Assembly (NCBI RefSeq): GCF_007744515.1
Contig: NZ_CP036268.1
Location: 2,581,712 to 2,645,711 of the forward strand
DNA: 64,000 bases
Direction: 5' to 3'
DNA from: Stratiformator vulcanicus
GTDB lineage: Bacteria; Planctomycetota; Planctomycetia; Planctomycetales; Planctomycetaceae
Shown: one piece after another, positions 9,966-17,936 of the stretch
How positions within the stretch are numbered: position 1 is the first letter of the stretch
How the letters are laid out: every line of letters starts with the position of its first letter
Notes under the pieces: model-generated
The model's input: the letters and a program-made list of their open reading frames with translations, nothing else
Database searches by the model: none
Told to the model about the DNA's origin: nothing
Translations under genes and position numbers: made by a program

Positions 9966-9999
9966 CCAACAAATGTTGGTCCGACCTAAGAAGGCAATA

Positions 10000-11310
10000 A
10001 TGGCGAATACTCGATTTTCGCAGCATTTTGAATTAGAAAAGTCTCAGGCTGATTTGGAATTCGTTGACATACCGCTGAATACTGATATTCGGCTATATGT
10101 GGATCCGTATGCTTTCGCAATAAGTAACGACAATTGGTACATAGAGTGTAACAATTCGATCGTCGGTTTTTTCAATAGCCTCATTAAGTGTATTCGGACC
10201 GGCAACAATCGTATTGGACTGGAAATGCTAGGAGGTTGTAGAGAACCAAATGAAACCCATTTAGGTCAGTCAACTGCCAGTCCACGTGGACGAGGCCTCG
10301 GTCCTGAAAAGGGCCGAGTCTTATACAAGAGCCTTTCAGAAAGCGAGGCTGCAAAGACTGGATTCCTAGAAGACCTGAATGACTGCGAGCTTATGATTCC
10401 GGGATTCGGGCCAGATACGATTTCGGATATATCTATCAACATTATTCGAGGGCACTTGGTTAGTTTTACACAGAATCAATGCAAATTGCATGGCATTCCT
10501 TCGCAGAGAGTTCGTGCTGGAAAAATTTGGAATCCTGCCAAATCGCAATGGGAATCTCACTTCTCCTCACTTCCAGTTGTGGCAGATGAGCCGTTGCTGC
10601 TGGTTCCGAGGGACGCTGTTCGAATAGAATCGTCGGTTAGCGCTAAGAAATTCGAGGCCCGGGCTATCGATTTTCTTGTACAAGAGAATCTTGACGCGCA
10701 CACTTCATTAGTTCGCGTCCTGAAAAATGGCGAACGTGTTGTGCATAAGAAGACCATCAAAGAGGAGGTTATTCAAAAGAGAATTCAGCAAAAAGAATTG
10801 CAAGGTCTAAAAGGATTCTTGTTTGATTTTGCACGCGAGCACCCTGAAGTGCTCGTTGACTACAAACGTGAAGCTATCGAGAGATCGCAACCGGTTCCGG
10901 TTGATCAGCTTTCAATTATTGTGAATAACTATTCGGAGGTAAGTGTCGAGATGAGCGGCGATAATGCGAATTTTGTTGGTGGAGACAATATGGGTGGAGT
11001 TGTCGGGAGTGGTCAAATTAATGCTCATGATATCACTGCATTCAAGGGGCATATTGAACAGTCCCAGATTTCAGAAGATGCCCGCGAGGCACTTCTGAGC
11101 GCTCGTCAAGAGGTCGAACAATTAGTAATTTCTGAGGGTGAGAAAACCGATATTTGTGATGACATAGGTAAGATGACTTCCGAACTCGAAAACGCTGAAC
11201 CAGATTCTGGACGTATCAGCACAATATTTGATCGAATCAACAAGATGGCTTCCTCGGTTGGTGCTATCTTAAAGGGGATCGCCGCTGTCGCATCCGCGAT
11301 AGATGTGTGA
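10000..11310 (+). CDS. Conflict-system-like protein: unknown N-domain, Gly/Asn linker, C-terminal hydrophobic helix
   Basis: I start at ATG 10000, preceded by TAAGAAGG, rather than at ATG 9973. The 436 residues split into an unrecognised N-terminal domain (1-190; conserved-looking [20 protein letters not shown] at 82-101 and SFTQNQCKLHGIP at 155-167), a charged middle (210-300), a Gly/Asn/Val-rich segment (319-345: SGDNANFVGGDNMGGVVGSG), a helical region (355-410) and a hydrophobic terminal helix (about 415-434). Such Gly/Asn linkers followed by a helical tail are common in bacterial immunity-type proteins, where the tail may attack membranes; that role is inferred here. The gene is strikingly AT-rich (about 38 percent GC in the sampled 60 bases from 10021, against a far GC-richer ParA gene), which suggests transfer. 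Confidence 0.7.
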   Translation: MANTRFSQHFELEKSQADLEFVDIPLNTDIRLYVDPYAFAISNDNWYIECNNSIVGFFNSLIKCIRTGNNRIGLEMLGGCREPNETHLGQSTASPRGRGLGPEKGRVLYKSLSESEAAKTGFLEDLNDCELMIPGFGPDTISDISINIIRGHLVSFTQNQCKLHGIPSQRVRAGKIWNPAKSQWESHFSSLPVVADEPLLLVPRDAVRIESSVSAKKFEARAIDFLVQENLDAHTSLVRVLKNGERVVHKKTIKEEVIQKRIQQKELQGLKGFLFDFAREHPEVLVDYKREAIERSQPVPVDQLSIIVNNYSEVSVEMSGDNANFVGGDNMGGVVGSGQINAHDITAFKGHIEQSQISEDAREALLSARQEVEQLVISEGEKTDICDDIGKMTSELENAEPDSGRISTIFDRINKMASSVGAILKGIAAVASAIDV

Positions 11311-11743
11311 CGGGGGCGGCTCGCCCCCGCTGTGAGCGGTCTGTTCCGTTATTGCGAAGTATCTTCTACTCAATGATCAAGGCGGAATCCAATGCCCCGC
11401 CGTCGAACGTTTAACACCCCGGGCACGCTCACGAGCTCACATTTCCCTGCTTCCGACGGCTGCCTCTACTGAGCCGCGAGCGCACCTGCTCGTGGTTGGC
11501 CGAATCGATCGATGCCGCCCGCGAACGACTCGAGTTCCATCTTTGGGGCGACGTCTTCATGCCCGAGCACGTTCACCTGATCGTGAAGCCGTCGGCACCC
11601 GATTACGATATGGGTTCCATCCGAACTGCCATCAAGTCACCGGTCTCGAAGAGAGCCGTCGGACTGGTTCAATAAACGCCGGAGGTGGATGGAAGTGTGC
11701 AAGAAGCAAGCGGACAACCAGATGCGGGGGCGAGCCGCCCCCG
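11311..11743 (+). mobile_element. 433-bp RAYT-derived element A (deleted, non-autonomous)
   Basis: The element is bounded by a 19-base hairpin CGGGGGCGGCTCGCCCCCG (11311-11329) and its exact reverse complement (11725-11743). It holds the N-terminal half of a REP-associated tyrosine transposase from ATG 11392, including MPEHVHLIV with the His-x-His motif, but one C is missing near 11425, shifting the frame. The C-terminal half is deleted, so the sequence jumps from the SPVSKRAV region to the tail after the stop. It begins directly after the stop codon of the preceding gene. It has the same length and organisation as element B (14455-14887). Confidence 0.82.
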
Positions 11744-11929
11744 GCACCCGGCCGGAATAAGTGGTGGAAAATGATCGCGCTTGGGGTGTTTTTGGCATCG
11801 GGACTGGAAAGTCCTTGACGGGGAGGTTCCCATGGGCGAACGATTTGATTGGTTGATTTCGGCAGGGCGGCTACGCGTCTTCAGGGATGAGCCAGGAAAC
11901 CACCGACCTCCGACCTGACTTCGTCGCTC
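11744..11929. other. Spacer upstream of the kinase gene
   Basis: This is the rest of the 619-base gene-free stretch after element A. I see no convincing ORF, terminator or clear promoter. The kinase ATG at 11930 has no strong ribosome binding site. Confidence 0.5.
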
Positions 11930-14365
11930 ATGACCGAGGACCACGCATCCAGCTCTCAGGGTACCCAAGGCAACCCTGACTTTGGTGATACGGTGGCGCC
12001 GGTGCCTTCGACTTCGCATTCCACCGCGACGGGCGGAGAGCAATTAGACGCCACGTTTGTGGTTCAAGGGGGTGTGGAAGTCGATGAGTTCGGGGCCGGC
12101 ACCAAGCAGGAACGTGACATCGCCTTCGGTGTGACGGCACTCGAAAGCGGCAAGGTGACCGAGCGGCAGATCGCGAAAGCGGTTTCCGACTGGACGATTC
12201 ACGGGCACGAGTCGCTCGCGGGTCATCTGATGGGCAAGGGTCTGCTCGATCCGGCAGTGCGACAGGAGCTGGAAGCGTCTGCGGCGACACGTCTTAAGAA
12301 CGTGGGGAACAGCATCGCTCCAGCCGATCGACTTTCCGCCAGTGGTCTGGGCTCGCTCCTGCTGGTCGACCGCTTGGACAAGCAAGGTCGCGTTTCGAAG
12401 TTACTGGGCATTGCGAATTCGGCGGCCGTCACGATTGATGACGATTCGCGCCGCTTGAATTCCCGTTTCCGTCTGCTGCGTAAGTTGGGACAGGGCGGGT
12501 TGGGGACGGTCTGGCTGGCCAGTGACGAAAGCCTGCGACGACTCGTGGCGATTAAAGAAATTAATCCCGCCGCGCAACATGATGAAGCCGCCATCGCCCG
12601 CTTTAAACGAGAAGCCGAGGTGACGGGACGGTTGGAACATCCCGGCATCGTGCCGATCTATCAATTCGGGACTGACGAATCAACGGAGCGGTATTTTTAT
12701 GTGATGCGGTTTCTAGGTAAGCAAACGCTGCAGGATGCGATTGCCGAATACCACGAGCGCCGGGAAGCGGGGCATCACGATCCAATGGACCTGCACCGGT
12801 TGCTGACGGCCTTCGTTAGTATCTGCCAGTCGGTCGCGCACGCCCATTCGCGAAAAATTATTCATCGTGATTTAAAGCCGGAGAACGTCGCGCTCGACAA
12901 CTTCGGTCAAGTGGTGCTGCTTGACTGGGGTCTGGCCAAATTAAATGACGAGACGGGACTGTTTGAACTGGCCGGTTCGATGTCTTCGGACGATCCGCAC
13001 GACTCGGGCGCGACCGTGGCCGGGCAGGTGCTGGGCACGCCGATGTACATGGCCCCGGAGCAGGCGGCCGGGCGTATCGACGAGATCGACGAACGGACCG
13101 ACGTATTCGGTTTGGGAGCGATTCTCTTCGCTATTCTGACGGGAGCGGCGCCGCACGAACGCTCGCGCGAGGCCGCCAGCGCCGCGGGTCGAATGGCGGA
13201 GCTTTTTAGTTCCATCGTCAGTGATCCCGTTCCCGACCCGTTGCTATATGACCCGGAATTGCCCGCCGACCTGCGGGCGATTTGCATGAAGGCGATCGCC
13301 AAGAAACGGTATCTCAGATATGAGACAGCCGAGGCGCTGGCCGACGATATTCAGCGTCAAATGGCGGGGGAGCCTGTCCGAGCGTATGAGGAACCGGCAT
13401 CGAAACGCATTCAGCGTTGGATCGGCGATCATCCGCGGCTGTCGCAGGCGTTGGGAGTGGTGGCCGCAATATTACTGGCGATCGTTTTCCTTGCTGCCGT
13501 GAAAACCTATCAGGACGGCGTGACCGCCGAGCGGGATCGCTTTGCGGCCATCAAGGCCGATGTCCGTGAGATGGAAATTAATCTGCGCTCGGATGCGGAC
13601 GACTTAAGTAAGGCGGTGCGGTTTATGTCCGACCTGCCGCCGATCGGCGCGCTGATCGATCTTGAAAATCAACGGGCGTCCGCGGACGCCGCCGAGGGTC
13701 GTGATGTGTGGCGGCGTCGGCTGGGGTCCATCTATAGCGGGCTATTAAAGTCGACACCGACCTGTCTGTCGGTCACCTTCGGTAAAGTCGACGAGGTCAC
13801 GTTTGATGAAATCGTCCGCGTGGAGCGCGGCTCGTTCGCGGGGGGGATTCCGCAGGTCCTTCCGGAAAGCCGCCTCGCCAGCTTTCCCATTGATAAGGCC
13901 GGCCTACTGGTGCGTTCCTTAAAGCCGGGCGAAGTCCTGGTGCTTGATCGCACGGTATTAACGGTGCCTGAAGCCGTTTTCAGCCGCGACCACCTCGTCT
14001 TAGTCGCGGGGACTCCGATCTACGATCAGGCCACCGGCGAAGTCTTCGGTATTGTGGCGATCGAATCCAACCTCGAACGGATGGTTCGCGAGTTAATCAG
14101 CCGGGTCGTGCGGCCGACCGAGCGGGTTCTGGTCCTCGACAGCAAGAATCACGTGCGAATCGATTATCAGGAGGCGACGGGCTTTCGAGAGATTCCCGAA
14201 CAGGTACGGGGGGAAGCGGTCGTGCCGGCACTCGACGGGTTCCTGAAGCAGACGGTCGACACGGAGTTTTCCGATAAGCGGGATATTTACGCAGTCAAAA
14301 TCCGCTTCGATCCCCGCCAACCCGACTCGGTCATCACGCTGGTGCTGATGAATGCGGAGGGTTAA
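11930..14365 (+). CDS. Receptor-like Ser/Thr protein kinase with C-terminal Cache-like sensor
   Basis: An 811-residue protein. Residues 1-180 are a non-catalytic N-terminal region with a helical part (60-125). The Hanks-type kinase domain (about 180-480) shows LGQGGLGTV (186-194), catalytic Lys209 in VAIKE, HRDLKPEN (312-319), DWG instead of DFG (332-334) and APE (375-377). One transmembrane helix lies at about 506-524. The remaining 285 residues would be outside the cytoplasm and resemble a Cache-type sensor: helix KTYQDGVTAERDRF, then strands ending in LVLVAGTPIYDQATGEVFGIVAIE, a classic PAS/Cache core strand. Kinase activity looks intact. The gene lies between RAYT elements A and B, which are direct repeats that could recombine and delete it. 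The ligand is unknown. Confidence 0.88.
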   Translation: MTEDHASSSQGTQGNPDFGDTVAPVPSTSHSTATGGEQLDATFVVQGGVEVDEFGAGTKQERDIAFGVTALESGKVTERQIAKAVSDWTIHGHESLAGHLMGKGLLDPAVRQELEASAATRLKNVGNSIAPADRLSASGLGSLLLVDRLDKQGRVSKLLGIANSAAVTIDDDSRRLNSRFRLLRKLGQGGLGTVWLASDESLRRLVAIKEINPAAQHDEAAIARFKREAEVTGRLEHPGIVPIYQFGTDESTERYFYVMRFLGKQTLQDAIAEYHERREAGHHDPMDLHRLLTAFVSICQSVAHAHSRKIIHRDLKPENVALDNFGQVVLLDWGLAKLNDETGLFELAGSMSSDDPHDSGATVAGQVLGTPMYMAPEQAAGRIDEIDERTDVFGLGAILFAILTGAAPHERSREAASAAGRMAELFSSIVSDPVPDPLLYDPELPADLRAICMKAIAKKRYLRYETAEALADDIQRQMAGEPVRAYEEPASKRIQRWIGDHPRLSQALGVVAAILLAIVFLAAVKTYQDGVTAERDRFAAIKADVREMEINLRSDADDLSKAVRFMSDLPPIGALIDLENQRASADAAEGRDVWRRRLGSIYSGLLKSTPTCLSVTFGKVDEVTFDEIVRVERGSFAGGIPQVLPESRLASFPIDKAGLLVRSLKPGEVLVLDRTVLTVPEAVFSRDHLVLVAGTPIYDQATGEVFGIVAIESNLERMVRELISRVVRPTERVLVLDSKNHVRIDYQEATGFREIPEQVRGEAVVPALDGFLKQTVDTEFSDKRDIYAVKIRFDPRQPDSVITLVLMNAEG

Positions 14366-14454
14366 CGGGCAACGGAATTGGACTAGGGGCAACATCTTAA
14401 CGACTATCTCTTGACGGCTATTTCTTTAGCATCCGGTCGAGTTCCGCCGGGTGC

Positions 14455-14887
14455 CGGGGGCGGCTCGCCCCCGCAGTGAGCGCGCTGTACCCGCATTGCA
14501 AACTATCTACTCCCAATGATTAAGGCGGAACCCAATGCCCCGCCGTCGAACCTCTAACACCCCCGGGCACGCTCACGAGCTCACGTTCTCCTGCTTCCGA
14601 CGGCTGCCTCTACTGAGCCGCGAGCGTAACTGCTCGTGGCTGGCCGAATCGATCGATGCCGCCCGCGAACGACTCAGGTTCCATCTTCGGGCCTACGTCT
14701 TCATGCTCGAGCACGTTCACCTGATCGTGAAGCCGTCGGCACCCGATTACGATATGGGTTCCATCCGAACCGCCATCAAGTCACCGGTCTCGAAGAGAGC
14801 CGTCGATTGGCTCGATAAACGCCGGGGGCGGTTGGCTGATGTGCAAGAAGCAATCGAGCGACCAGATGCGGGGGCGAGCCGCCTCCG
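14455..14887 (+). mobile_element. 433-bp RAYT-derived element B (deleted, non-autonomous)
   Basis: The head hairpin CGGGGGCGGCTCGCCCCCG (14455-14473) and the inverted tail hairpin (14869-14887, one mismatch) bound an element exactly as long as element A. The transposase frame from ATG 14535 reads RRRTSNTPGHAHELTFSC, then LEHVHLIVKP and SPVSKRAVDWLD before the internal deletion. The deletion appears to join codons GAT TGG CTC GAT in the middle of the gene to the GAC TGG CTC GAT near its end, as seen intact in element C. The matching Tyr and C-terminal half are gone, so this copy cannot encode an active transposase. Confidence 0.83.
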
Positions 14888-14990
14888 GCACCCGGCGAAA
14901 TGTTCCAAAAAAGACGTGGACGTGCAACCCGGGGGACATGATGCTGCGAACTGTAACTGTGAGCCGTTCGCCCAAACGCCCTGCCCTTAA
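14535..14990 (+). pseudogene. Truncated REP-associated tyrosine transposase (Y1_Tnp) in element B
   Basis: The first about 95 residues match the N-terminus of RAYT transposases (PGHAHELTFSCFRRLPLL, then YVFMLEHVHLIVKP with the HUH-type His-x-His). After SPVSKRAVDWLD the frame runs through the element tail and beyond the terminal hairpin into unrelated sequence. Full-length relatives are about 180-220 residues, with the catalytic Tyr in the missing part. The usual Pro before Glu-His-Val-His is Leu here. Confidence 0.75.
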
Positions 14991-16094: not shown

Positions 16095-16520
16095 ATGATT
16101 TCAGCGAGTTCCTATGCATCGAACTTCTTGCCCGACAGAGCGTGTGGCTGGGCCAAAGATTTGTTGCTTTATCCGTTGACGACTCGACACGAATGCTAGC
16201 TGACTATACTGGTCTAGTACTGGCAGATCCACGTGATTTATATAGATGACAGGTTCCAGCAATCTCGCCGCTTGCCGGGGGCGGCGCGCCCCCGCAGTGT
16301 GCGGTTCGTTTCCTTATTGCACAATATCCACTCCTTGAATTTAAGGTGGAATCAAGCAGCCCTCCGCCGCACCTTCAAGGCGCCGACAGAACCAGAGTAC
16401 CGGCACCCACGGGCAACTCCGACACCCGGAGCTACATGCAACTAACTGTGTCAAGACGTACCCGGTACGATTTCAACCAAATTCTTTCCCACGGCAATCA
16501 TTCTCGATTCGGTGGTAGAT
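16095..16520. other. Gene-free stretch holding the head of RAYT element C
   Basis: Apart from the terminal hairpin CGGGGGCGGCGCGCCCCCG at 16276-16294 and about 100 bases that still resemble the heads of elements A and B, nothing is recognised. The transposase start region is degenerate here (16350-16400). Confidence 0.6.
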
Positions 16521-17354
16521 ATGCGATGTGTTGCGATTGCAGTTGCAATAAGCCTTGTCGGCGCGGGCGCGATTGCCAGCGACGAATCACCGGCTCTTGC
16601 GGAGTTCGATCGATTTCACGGAGTCAGGTCAGTTGAAGATGGAAAACCGTGCGTTGATTGCAAGTTGACCCTGCGTGTGGCAACTTCGGCGGAAAATAGC
16701 TATTTCACTTCCGGCTATCAACTCTTCGACATTTTGCCCGCAAACAGTAGTTCACTTTTTAAATCACCGTCTATTGCACAAGCCAAGTTCTCAAGGAAAT
16801 CTGTACCGATCGAAGGATTATTGGTTGACGGAAAAATCGATCACTACAGCTTCTCGGCAGTACTGGGCACCATCGAGGAAGGAAGCGAGTTTGTGCTCCC
16901 CGATGGCTCACAGTGGACGGCGCAGAAGATTGAAGTTGACGCTGGTGGCGTCGAGTTCAACGTAACATCGCCCAGTTGGAACTTCTCATCCGACGAAGAC
17001 GTGGCAACTGACCTGTTGGAGCTTCCCGTCGACTCCAGCATCACTATTTTGCATGAAGAGTCATCCAAGGTGTGGGTTAGTAAAGCCCTATTCCATACGA
17101 CGCTGGGAGTTTCACGCCGCCTCGTCGACGGCCGCTTCTTGACGGACGTGAAGATTTCAGTACCGGTCCGTAATGAAAGTGCGGCTGGACGAAAATCCGT
17201 CAAGAGGAACTACTTCGACATTGAGGATGGTGACGTGATTGAGCTATTCCCCGGCATCAAACGGGTCGTCAAGACAGTTGTTGCGTCTTCCCCCTCAAAA
17301 GGGGTCCGAGGAAAGGTCGTGATTGCGTCTATGACTCAAGGAAACGGATCTTGA
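16521..17354 (+). CDS. Secreted protein of unknown function inside element C
   Basis: A 277-residue protein; I use ATG 16521 rather than the GTG nine bases earlier. Signal peptide about 1-19 (VAIAVAISLVGAGAIA). The rest is strand-rich with no family I can name. A region near 175-265 (IEDGDVIELFPGIKRVVKTVVAS, and earlier LPDGSQWTAQKIEVDAGGVEF) gives two similar units ending in a V-V-hydrophobic strand, suggesting two related beta domains. CVDC at about 46-49 might bind metal or form a disulfide. The gene lies between the ends of RAYT element C. Confidence 0.62.
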   Translation: MRCVAIAVAISLVGAGAIASDESPALAEFDRFHGVRSVEDGKPCVDCKLTLRVATSAENSYFTSGYQLFDILPANSSSLFKSPSIAQAKFSRKSVPIEGLLVDGKIDHYSFSAVLGTIEEGSEFVLPDGSQWTAQKIEVDAGGVEFNVTSPSWNFSSDEDVATDLLELPVDSSITILHEESSKVWVSKALFHTTLGVSRRLVDGRFLTDVKISVPVRNESAAGRKSVKRNYFDIEDGDVIELFPGIKRVVKTVVASSPSKGVRGKVVIASMTQGNGS

Positions 17355-17369
17355 AATTTGAGTGACGGC

Positions 17370-17494
17370 GGGTGGCTGGGGACAGGCGTTTTCGCCTGCC
17401 CTAAGTCGAGCGCGTTTGAAGATAACCCCTCCAGCAAGGCCGCGTTACCCCGCGCTCGCCGGGGGCGGTTCTGCGAGACCGTCCCCAGCCACCC
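17370..17494. repeat. 125-bp inverted-repeat insert
   Basis: Perfect 14-base arms GGGTGGCTGGGGAC (17370-17383) and GTCCCCAGCCACCC (17481-17494) enclose 97 bases that include a small hairpin CAGGCG-TTTT-CGCCTG (17383-17398). It abuts the transposase fragment at 17498. It looks like a MITE-type or REP-type element of a different family from the hairpins bounding elements A to C. Confidence 0.65.
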
Positions 17495-17497
17495 CCC

Positions 17498-17698
17498 GGC
17501 TACGACGGCAACATCACGGAGTCGAAGACGTTGTTGAAAACGTTGCTGAAGATGGTCGACTATATCCACGCCAACCTGCTTCGCCGTGGGCTGGTGGAAC
17601 GGCCGACTGATTGGAAGTGCTCAAGTGCGGCGGAGTTAATCGACGAGCGACCCGGACCGCTCCGAGTCGACCGAGTGCCGCCGGACTGGCTCGATTAA
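17498..17698 (+). pseudogene. C-terminal fragment of a RAYT transposase
   Basis: The frame reads GYDGNITESKTLLK, then MVDYIHANLLRRGLVERP and finally DRVPPDWLD before TAA. This is the typical end of REP-associated transposases (YDRNI, DYIHANPVRRGLV, DWKWSSA); here TDWKCSSAAE is seen. No start or N-terminal half is present. The segment corresponds to the part that elements A and B lost, and its last codons show where their deletion ended. Confidence 0.82.
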
Positions 17699-17767
17699 CG
17701 CCGGGGGGCGGTTGGCTAATGTGCAAGAAGCAACCGGACAACCAGATGCGGGGGCGAGCCGCCCCCG

Positions 17768-17936
17768 GCGGGGGATCGGGTGATTTCGGTCTCACGCAAG
17801 TGTTTACGCTCACCCGCCTCCCACGATCACGCTCCGTTTTGGGAATCGTGCACTAAAAGCTGAAGTTCTGCGAAACGATCCCGCACTTGCGGTGTTTCAC
17901 ATCCCACAAGCTCCTGAGCCGACGGGGTAACGCACC
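17768..17936. other. Spacer upstream of the RG-rich protein gene
   Basis: This is the remainder of the gene-free stretch between 17355 and 17936; the first part is covered by the 125-bp insert and the transposase fragment. I see no ORF. It probably holds the promoter of the 17937-22469 operon, but no clear boxes stand out. Confidence 0.4.

Follow-up and report, generated by a model that had tools for sequence, protein, structure and literature searches.

Internal deletions in two copies of a REP-flanked RAYT element in a planctomycete genome

Introduction

RAYTs (REP-associated tyrosine transposases; TnpA-REP, forming class 2 of the TnpA-Y1 superfamily) are usually regarded as genes maintained by the host, and have been described as low-copy genes without evidence of mobility (PMC6006769), or as single-copy genes apparently unable to move themselves (PMC3116915). 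For REPINs, the miniature elements found in genomes with a RAYT, an origin from the termini of an IS200-like ancestor has been proposed (PMC3116915, PMC6006769). In a literature search, we found no report of internally deleted RAYT copies.

Here we describe two non-autonomous elements, A and B. Each is a copy of a RAYT element flanked by REPs and has lost an internal segment; the intact form, element C, lies elsewhere in the same genome. A and B are found in the window, a 64,000-nucleotide stretch at positions 2581712-2645711 of the single 5,228,745-bp contig (G000:C1) of a planctomycete; coordinates without a prefix are those of the window. Copy counts for the whole genome come from sequence searches. 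Relatives were sampled as 59 close genomes and 397 genomes of the class, two samples that overlap (about 400-450 genomes altogether).

Results

Anatomy of the two elements

The two elements lie 3.1 kb apart in identical orientation. Their features are the following:

11307..11752, plus strand: element A, 433 bp from hairpin to hairpin (11311-11743), 90% identical to B, without flank homology
11311..11329: left terminal hairpin (REP) of A, matching the pattern; single-stranded DNA fold of -11.4 kcal/mol, z -3.6
11394..11661, plus strand: RAYT ORF remnant of A, the N-terminal part with HUH, frameshifted by a C absent from a CACCCC run
11661..11673, plus strand: deletion junction of A, GGACTGGTTCAAT, aligned to the proximal and distal repeats of C
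11725..11743: right terminal hairpin (REP) of A, inverted; from fold and pattern search
14451..14896, plus strand: element B, an internally deleted RAYT, 433 bp from hairpin to hairpin (14455-14887); from pairwise alignment
14455..14473: left terminal hairpin (REP) of B; from pattern and fold
14535..14990, plus strand: truncated open RAYT ORF of B, 151 aa, HUH present, catalytic Tyr absent
14804..14815, plus strand: deletion junction of B, GATTGGCTCGAT, placed to about 1 base by alignment with the repeats of C
14869..14887: right terminal hairpin (REP) of B, inverted, with one mismatch in the stem

An earlier note had described A and B as RAYT-derived, both 433 bp long and ending in inverted hairpins, and this description was confirmed. 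The 433 bp are counted in each element from CGGGGGCGG to the last CCG; the homologous block extends slightly beyond the hairpins, to 446 bp. The equal length is partly a matter of chance, because the alignment with B shows four single-base indels in A, two +1 and two -1. In the hairpins, a GGGGGCG/CGCCCCC stem encloses the loop, which is GCT or AGC; complementarity between the left arm and the right arm of an element extends across 24-34 nt. Hairpin sites of this type occur 12 times in the window (six palindromic places, each counted on both strands), against an expectation of 0.07. For the right hairpin of B, folding was no stronger than in shuffled sequence.

Neither element encodes the complete catalytic protein of a RAYT, the region around Tyr139 being deleted in both. 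In A, nearly invariant residues have changed in addition to the frameshift. The ORF of B passes in frame across the junction and runs on beyond the end of the element, the former stop TAA now reading AAA. The NCBIfam model for REP-associated tyrosine transposases (NF047646, cut-off 80 bits) matches the B product over profile positions 2-88 of 146, with 45.6 bits.

When we compared the 1-kb flanks of A, B and C, left and right, no clear similarity was apparent and alignment scores were at the level of shuffled sequence, with the sole exception of a weak right-flank score of 31 (shuffled maximum, 26). The dissimilarity of these flanks identifies the shared block as a hairpin-bounded unit.

A 445-aa ORF (9973-11310) lies immediately upstream of A, and its stop codon TGA (11308-11310) is provided by the left end of A, which reads GTGA where C and B read GTGC. 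Two relatives of the 445-aa protein (56% and 38% identical) stop 2-3 codons later and have no such element after them; these comparisons fit an insertion of A at the 3' end of the upstream ORF.

An intact parent and a dispersed family

Sequence searches of the genome recovered one intact relative of A and B, as the earlier note had supposed. This element, C, spans G000:C1:3395195-3395908 (about 714-715 bp) and encodes a 183-aa RAYT flanked by REPs. Its product scores 96.2 bits on NF047646, above the cut-off, and has an HUH motif (HVH) at residues 60-62, Tyr139 within YIHANP (Y---NP), and DWL at 91, 99 and 180. Both ends of C are inverted hairpins with the same GCT/AGC loops as in A and B. Upstream of the junction, A and B are about 82% identical to C. 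We consider the anatomy and parentage of A and B to be solid.

At least seven pieces of the family are present in the genome: C, A, B and four fragments. Two of the fragments, D5 and D3, are in the window:

16272..16384, plus strand: D5, the 5' end of a third, decayed member, with a hairpin at 16277 and a match of about 80% to A/B/C
17365..17770, plus strand: D3, the undeleted 3' third of a member joined to a second hairpin repeat, with 220 identities to C and the distal repeat GACTGGCTCGATTAACG retained

The other two are F (G000:C1:777534-777923, minus strand) and G, a family 3' end at 780031-780097 of the contig. F is the same chimera as D3, in which a C-type RAYT, reduced to its last third, is joined to a GGGTGGCTGGGGAC hairpin repeat; the two are 92% identical, 1.8 Mb apart, and have unrelated flanks. 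Since the chimera junction does not lie on a long repeat, the case for copying of a defective piece is stronger for D3 and F than for A and B. Its mechanism could be either movement or recombination through the abundant GGGTGGCTGGGGAC repeat.

Several further features of these repeats were observed. In 16272-17770, the RAYT 5' end and 3' part bracket a 280-aa gene without a Pfam match, and at the F/G locus a gene is likewise bracketed by a RAYT 3' end and the chimera. The GGGTGGCTGGGGAC hairpin repeats, abundant in this genome, also occur in other planctomycete loci (L094, L098, L153 and L159), L098 being a dense array. A second intact RAYT, E (G000:C1:4716501-4717244), has hairpins with GTG/CAC loops. 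REPIN-like doublets of the genome (L136-L149), with hairpins spaced by about 110-125 bp, mostly have the GTG/CAC loops of E and not GCT/AGC; no short REPIN population with loops of the A/B/C type was seen among them. L144 (G000:C1:4667446, 4667579 and 4667710) is a small tandem array of three REP ends in one orientation, spaced by about 132 bp.

The deletion junction

Within the 715 bp of C, GACTGGCTCGA occurs twice, at 356 and 623, with a spacing of 267 bp (89 codons). In A and B, the first of these sites is connected to the sequence beyond the second, so that one repeat and the intervening 267 bp are gone. The loss is in frame; it removes the catalytic Tyr139 and retains the HUH motif. Alignment with C thus bore out the proposal that the deletion runs from the middle of the transposase gene to just before its stop, and the repeat GA(T/C)TGGCTCGAT that had been read at the junction is indeed present in C at both places. 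Among repeats within C, this direct repeat of 11 bp is one of the two longest. The other, of 12 bp (GCCGGACTGGCT, at 376 and 619), was used by neither A nor B.

The two junctions had been taken to be the same. They do lie on the same repeat, but their letters differ: A has GGACTGG, as in the distal repeat of C, D and F, whereas B has GATTGG, which also occurs in RAYT E at its proximal site. Both elements read AAA after the junction, where undeleted copies have TAA or CAA.

Many identical junctions were expected if the deleted form had been mobilised. In the genome, the junction occurs in two copies, A and B only, and no deleted element with this junction was found in the 59 close genomes or the 397 of the class (overlapping samples). 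Matches in these relatives are partial, none of them covering the whole deleted element, and the frames that were read are mostly full-length RAYT genes. A match in one relative (G244) that apparently spanned the junction proved to be an undeleted, frameshifted RAYT without the direct repeat. A genome-wide scan with the C protein gave 43 relatives, the full-length ones at most about 61% identical in the best segment; none of the 43 is close enough to date the deletion.

Divergence between A and B

Differences between A and B are unevenly distributed: 15 of 269 sites differ in the coding part (5.6%) and 27 of 175 in the ends (about 15%; Fisher p=0.0008). A two-breakpoint scan delimited a conserved tract at columns 77-362, with 16 differences in 284 sites, against 27 in 160 outside it (46/3000 permutations); this tract ends at the junction. 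Such a mosaic is not produced by uniform neutral decay after one copying event. It would arise if other family copies had converted the ends, or if conversion between A and B had affected the interior.

Synonymous divergence in the coding part is 0.089 between A and B and about 0.4 to C. The changes between A and B, nine nonsynonymous and six synonymous, are compatible with neutrality (p=0.23) and marginally different from the A-C pattern (p=0.05). Because these changes look neutral, the common source of A and B was probably already dead before they split. Beyond the junction, A and B are 84.6% identical to each other, compared with 84.4% (A) and 85.7% (B) to the undeleted D. This part has only 7 informative sites; the shortest tree, ahead by 2 steps, groups A with D and B with F.

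Discussion

How the deleted form came to be at two sites

The best single reading of these data, to which we give a probability of roughly 0.5, is that one repeat-mediated deletion was followed by copying in trans by a C-type RAYT. A full-length element would first have lost its interior by slipped mispairing or annealing between the GACTGGCTCGA repeats. The deleted form, with both hairpin ends intact, would then have been copied to a second site by the C-type RAYT, acting on single-stranded DNA. Both copies would have decayed later, A by frameshift, and their ends may have been partly overwritten through exchange with other copies of the family. The reading is supported by C, which is intact, carries the repeat at both ends of the deleted segment and has the same hairpin loops as A and B, and also by the unrelated flanks and by the upstream ORF of A, whose relatives fit an insertion there. 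A single deletion is favoured because A and B share the AAA after the junction and have coding parts that are close and neutral-looking. The reading is weakened by the small number of junction copies, by the differing junction letters and by the post-junction sequences, in which A and B resemble D as much as they resemble one another and the shortest tree separates them. Nor are RAYT proteins known to mobilise their own genes (PMC3116915, PMC6006769).

The earlier note had argued that a shared junction means that the deleted form itself was copied. We find this likely, but the differing letters and the mosaic divergence keep the argument short of proof, as does the position of the junction on a direct repeat; a junction at an arbitrary point would have been proof. 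With only two deleted copies, movement of the crippled form itself is uncertain and stays unproven.

Deletions between direct repeats by slipped mispairing can recur at one spot. Two full-length insertions might thus each have lost the same segment between the GACTGG repeats. The position of the junction on an 11-bp direct repeat agrees with this, the letters at the two junctions, distal in type in A and like the proximal site of RAYT E in B, fit different exchange points, and the post-junction tree separates A from B. We nevertheless regard independent deletions as less likely: the longer 12-bp repeat was left unused both times, the extra G of A is explicable as a one-base duplication in an element that already has indels, the AAA is common to both elements, and the coding changes appear neutral since the split.

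The mosaic divergence led us to retain gene conversion as a further rival, somewhat less probable again, in which one of two full-length copies was deleted and the deletion then spread with the interior to the nearby copy. The break in divergence at the junction would suit it, as would the short distance and shared orientation of A and B; however, conversion of the ends of an already deleted pair by other family copies yields the same mosaic, and the 5.6% difference in the interior means that any conversion is old. Local segmental duplication of the region, to which the proximity and shared orientation might point and for which the earlier note would have looked to homologous flanks beyond the hairpins, can be dismissed, since the homology ends at the hairpins and the 1-kb flanks are unrelated.

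Comparison with known systems

Like described RAYTs (class 2, PMC6006769), C has the HVH and YIHANP motifs and is flanked by inverted REPs of its own loop type, whereas A and B lack the Tyr and the C-terminal part. C shares with IS200/IS605 elements (TnpA-IS200) the HUH-Y1 chemistry and the hairpin ends; however, it scores 13.1 bits on the IS200 model, for which the cut-off is 55 bits. With terminal inverted repeats retained, a broken transposase and an intact source in the same genome, A and B resemble the MITEs that derive from insertion sequences by internal deletion. They differ from these in that the ends are REP hairpins and in that no target duplication is expected; with two copies of the junction, which lies on a repeat, they may or may not count as several copies of one deleted form. 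A and B share with REPINs (Bertels and Rainey 2011, PMC3116915) their non-autonomous character and the two inverted REPs at their ends, in a genome with a RAYT; unlike REPINs, which have short spacers and many copies, they are 433 bp long, contain half a RAYT gene and number two.

More unusual than the A/B junction is the REP-RAYT-REP unit itself, present in several copies with unrelated flanks. This is the more interesting point because published descriptions give RAYTs a low copy number and no demonstrated mobility (for the class 2 genes, PMC6006769). It is possible, and we propose it tentatively, that the whole unit moves like an insertion sequence, and that A, B and the D3/F chimera are trans-mobilised intermediates on the way to REPIN-like miniature elements. 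A sample of two copies is too small to serve as proof of a step from RAYT to REPIN. The genome combines a REP-flanked RAYT that is still intact with deleted copies in unrelated surroundings and with a distinct population of REPINs, and this combination makes it a concrete place to test that step.
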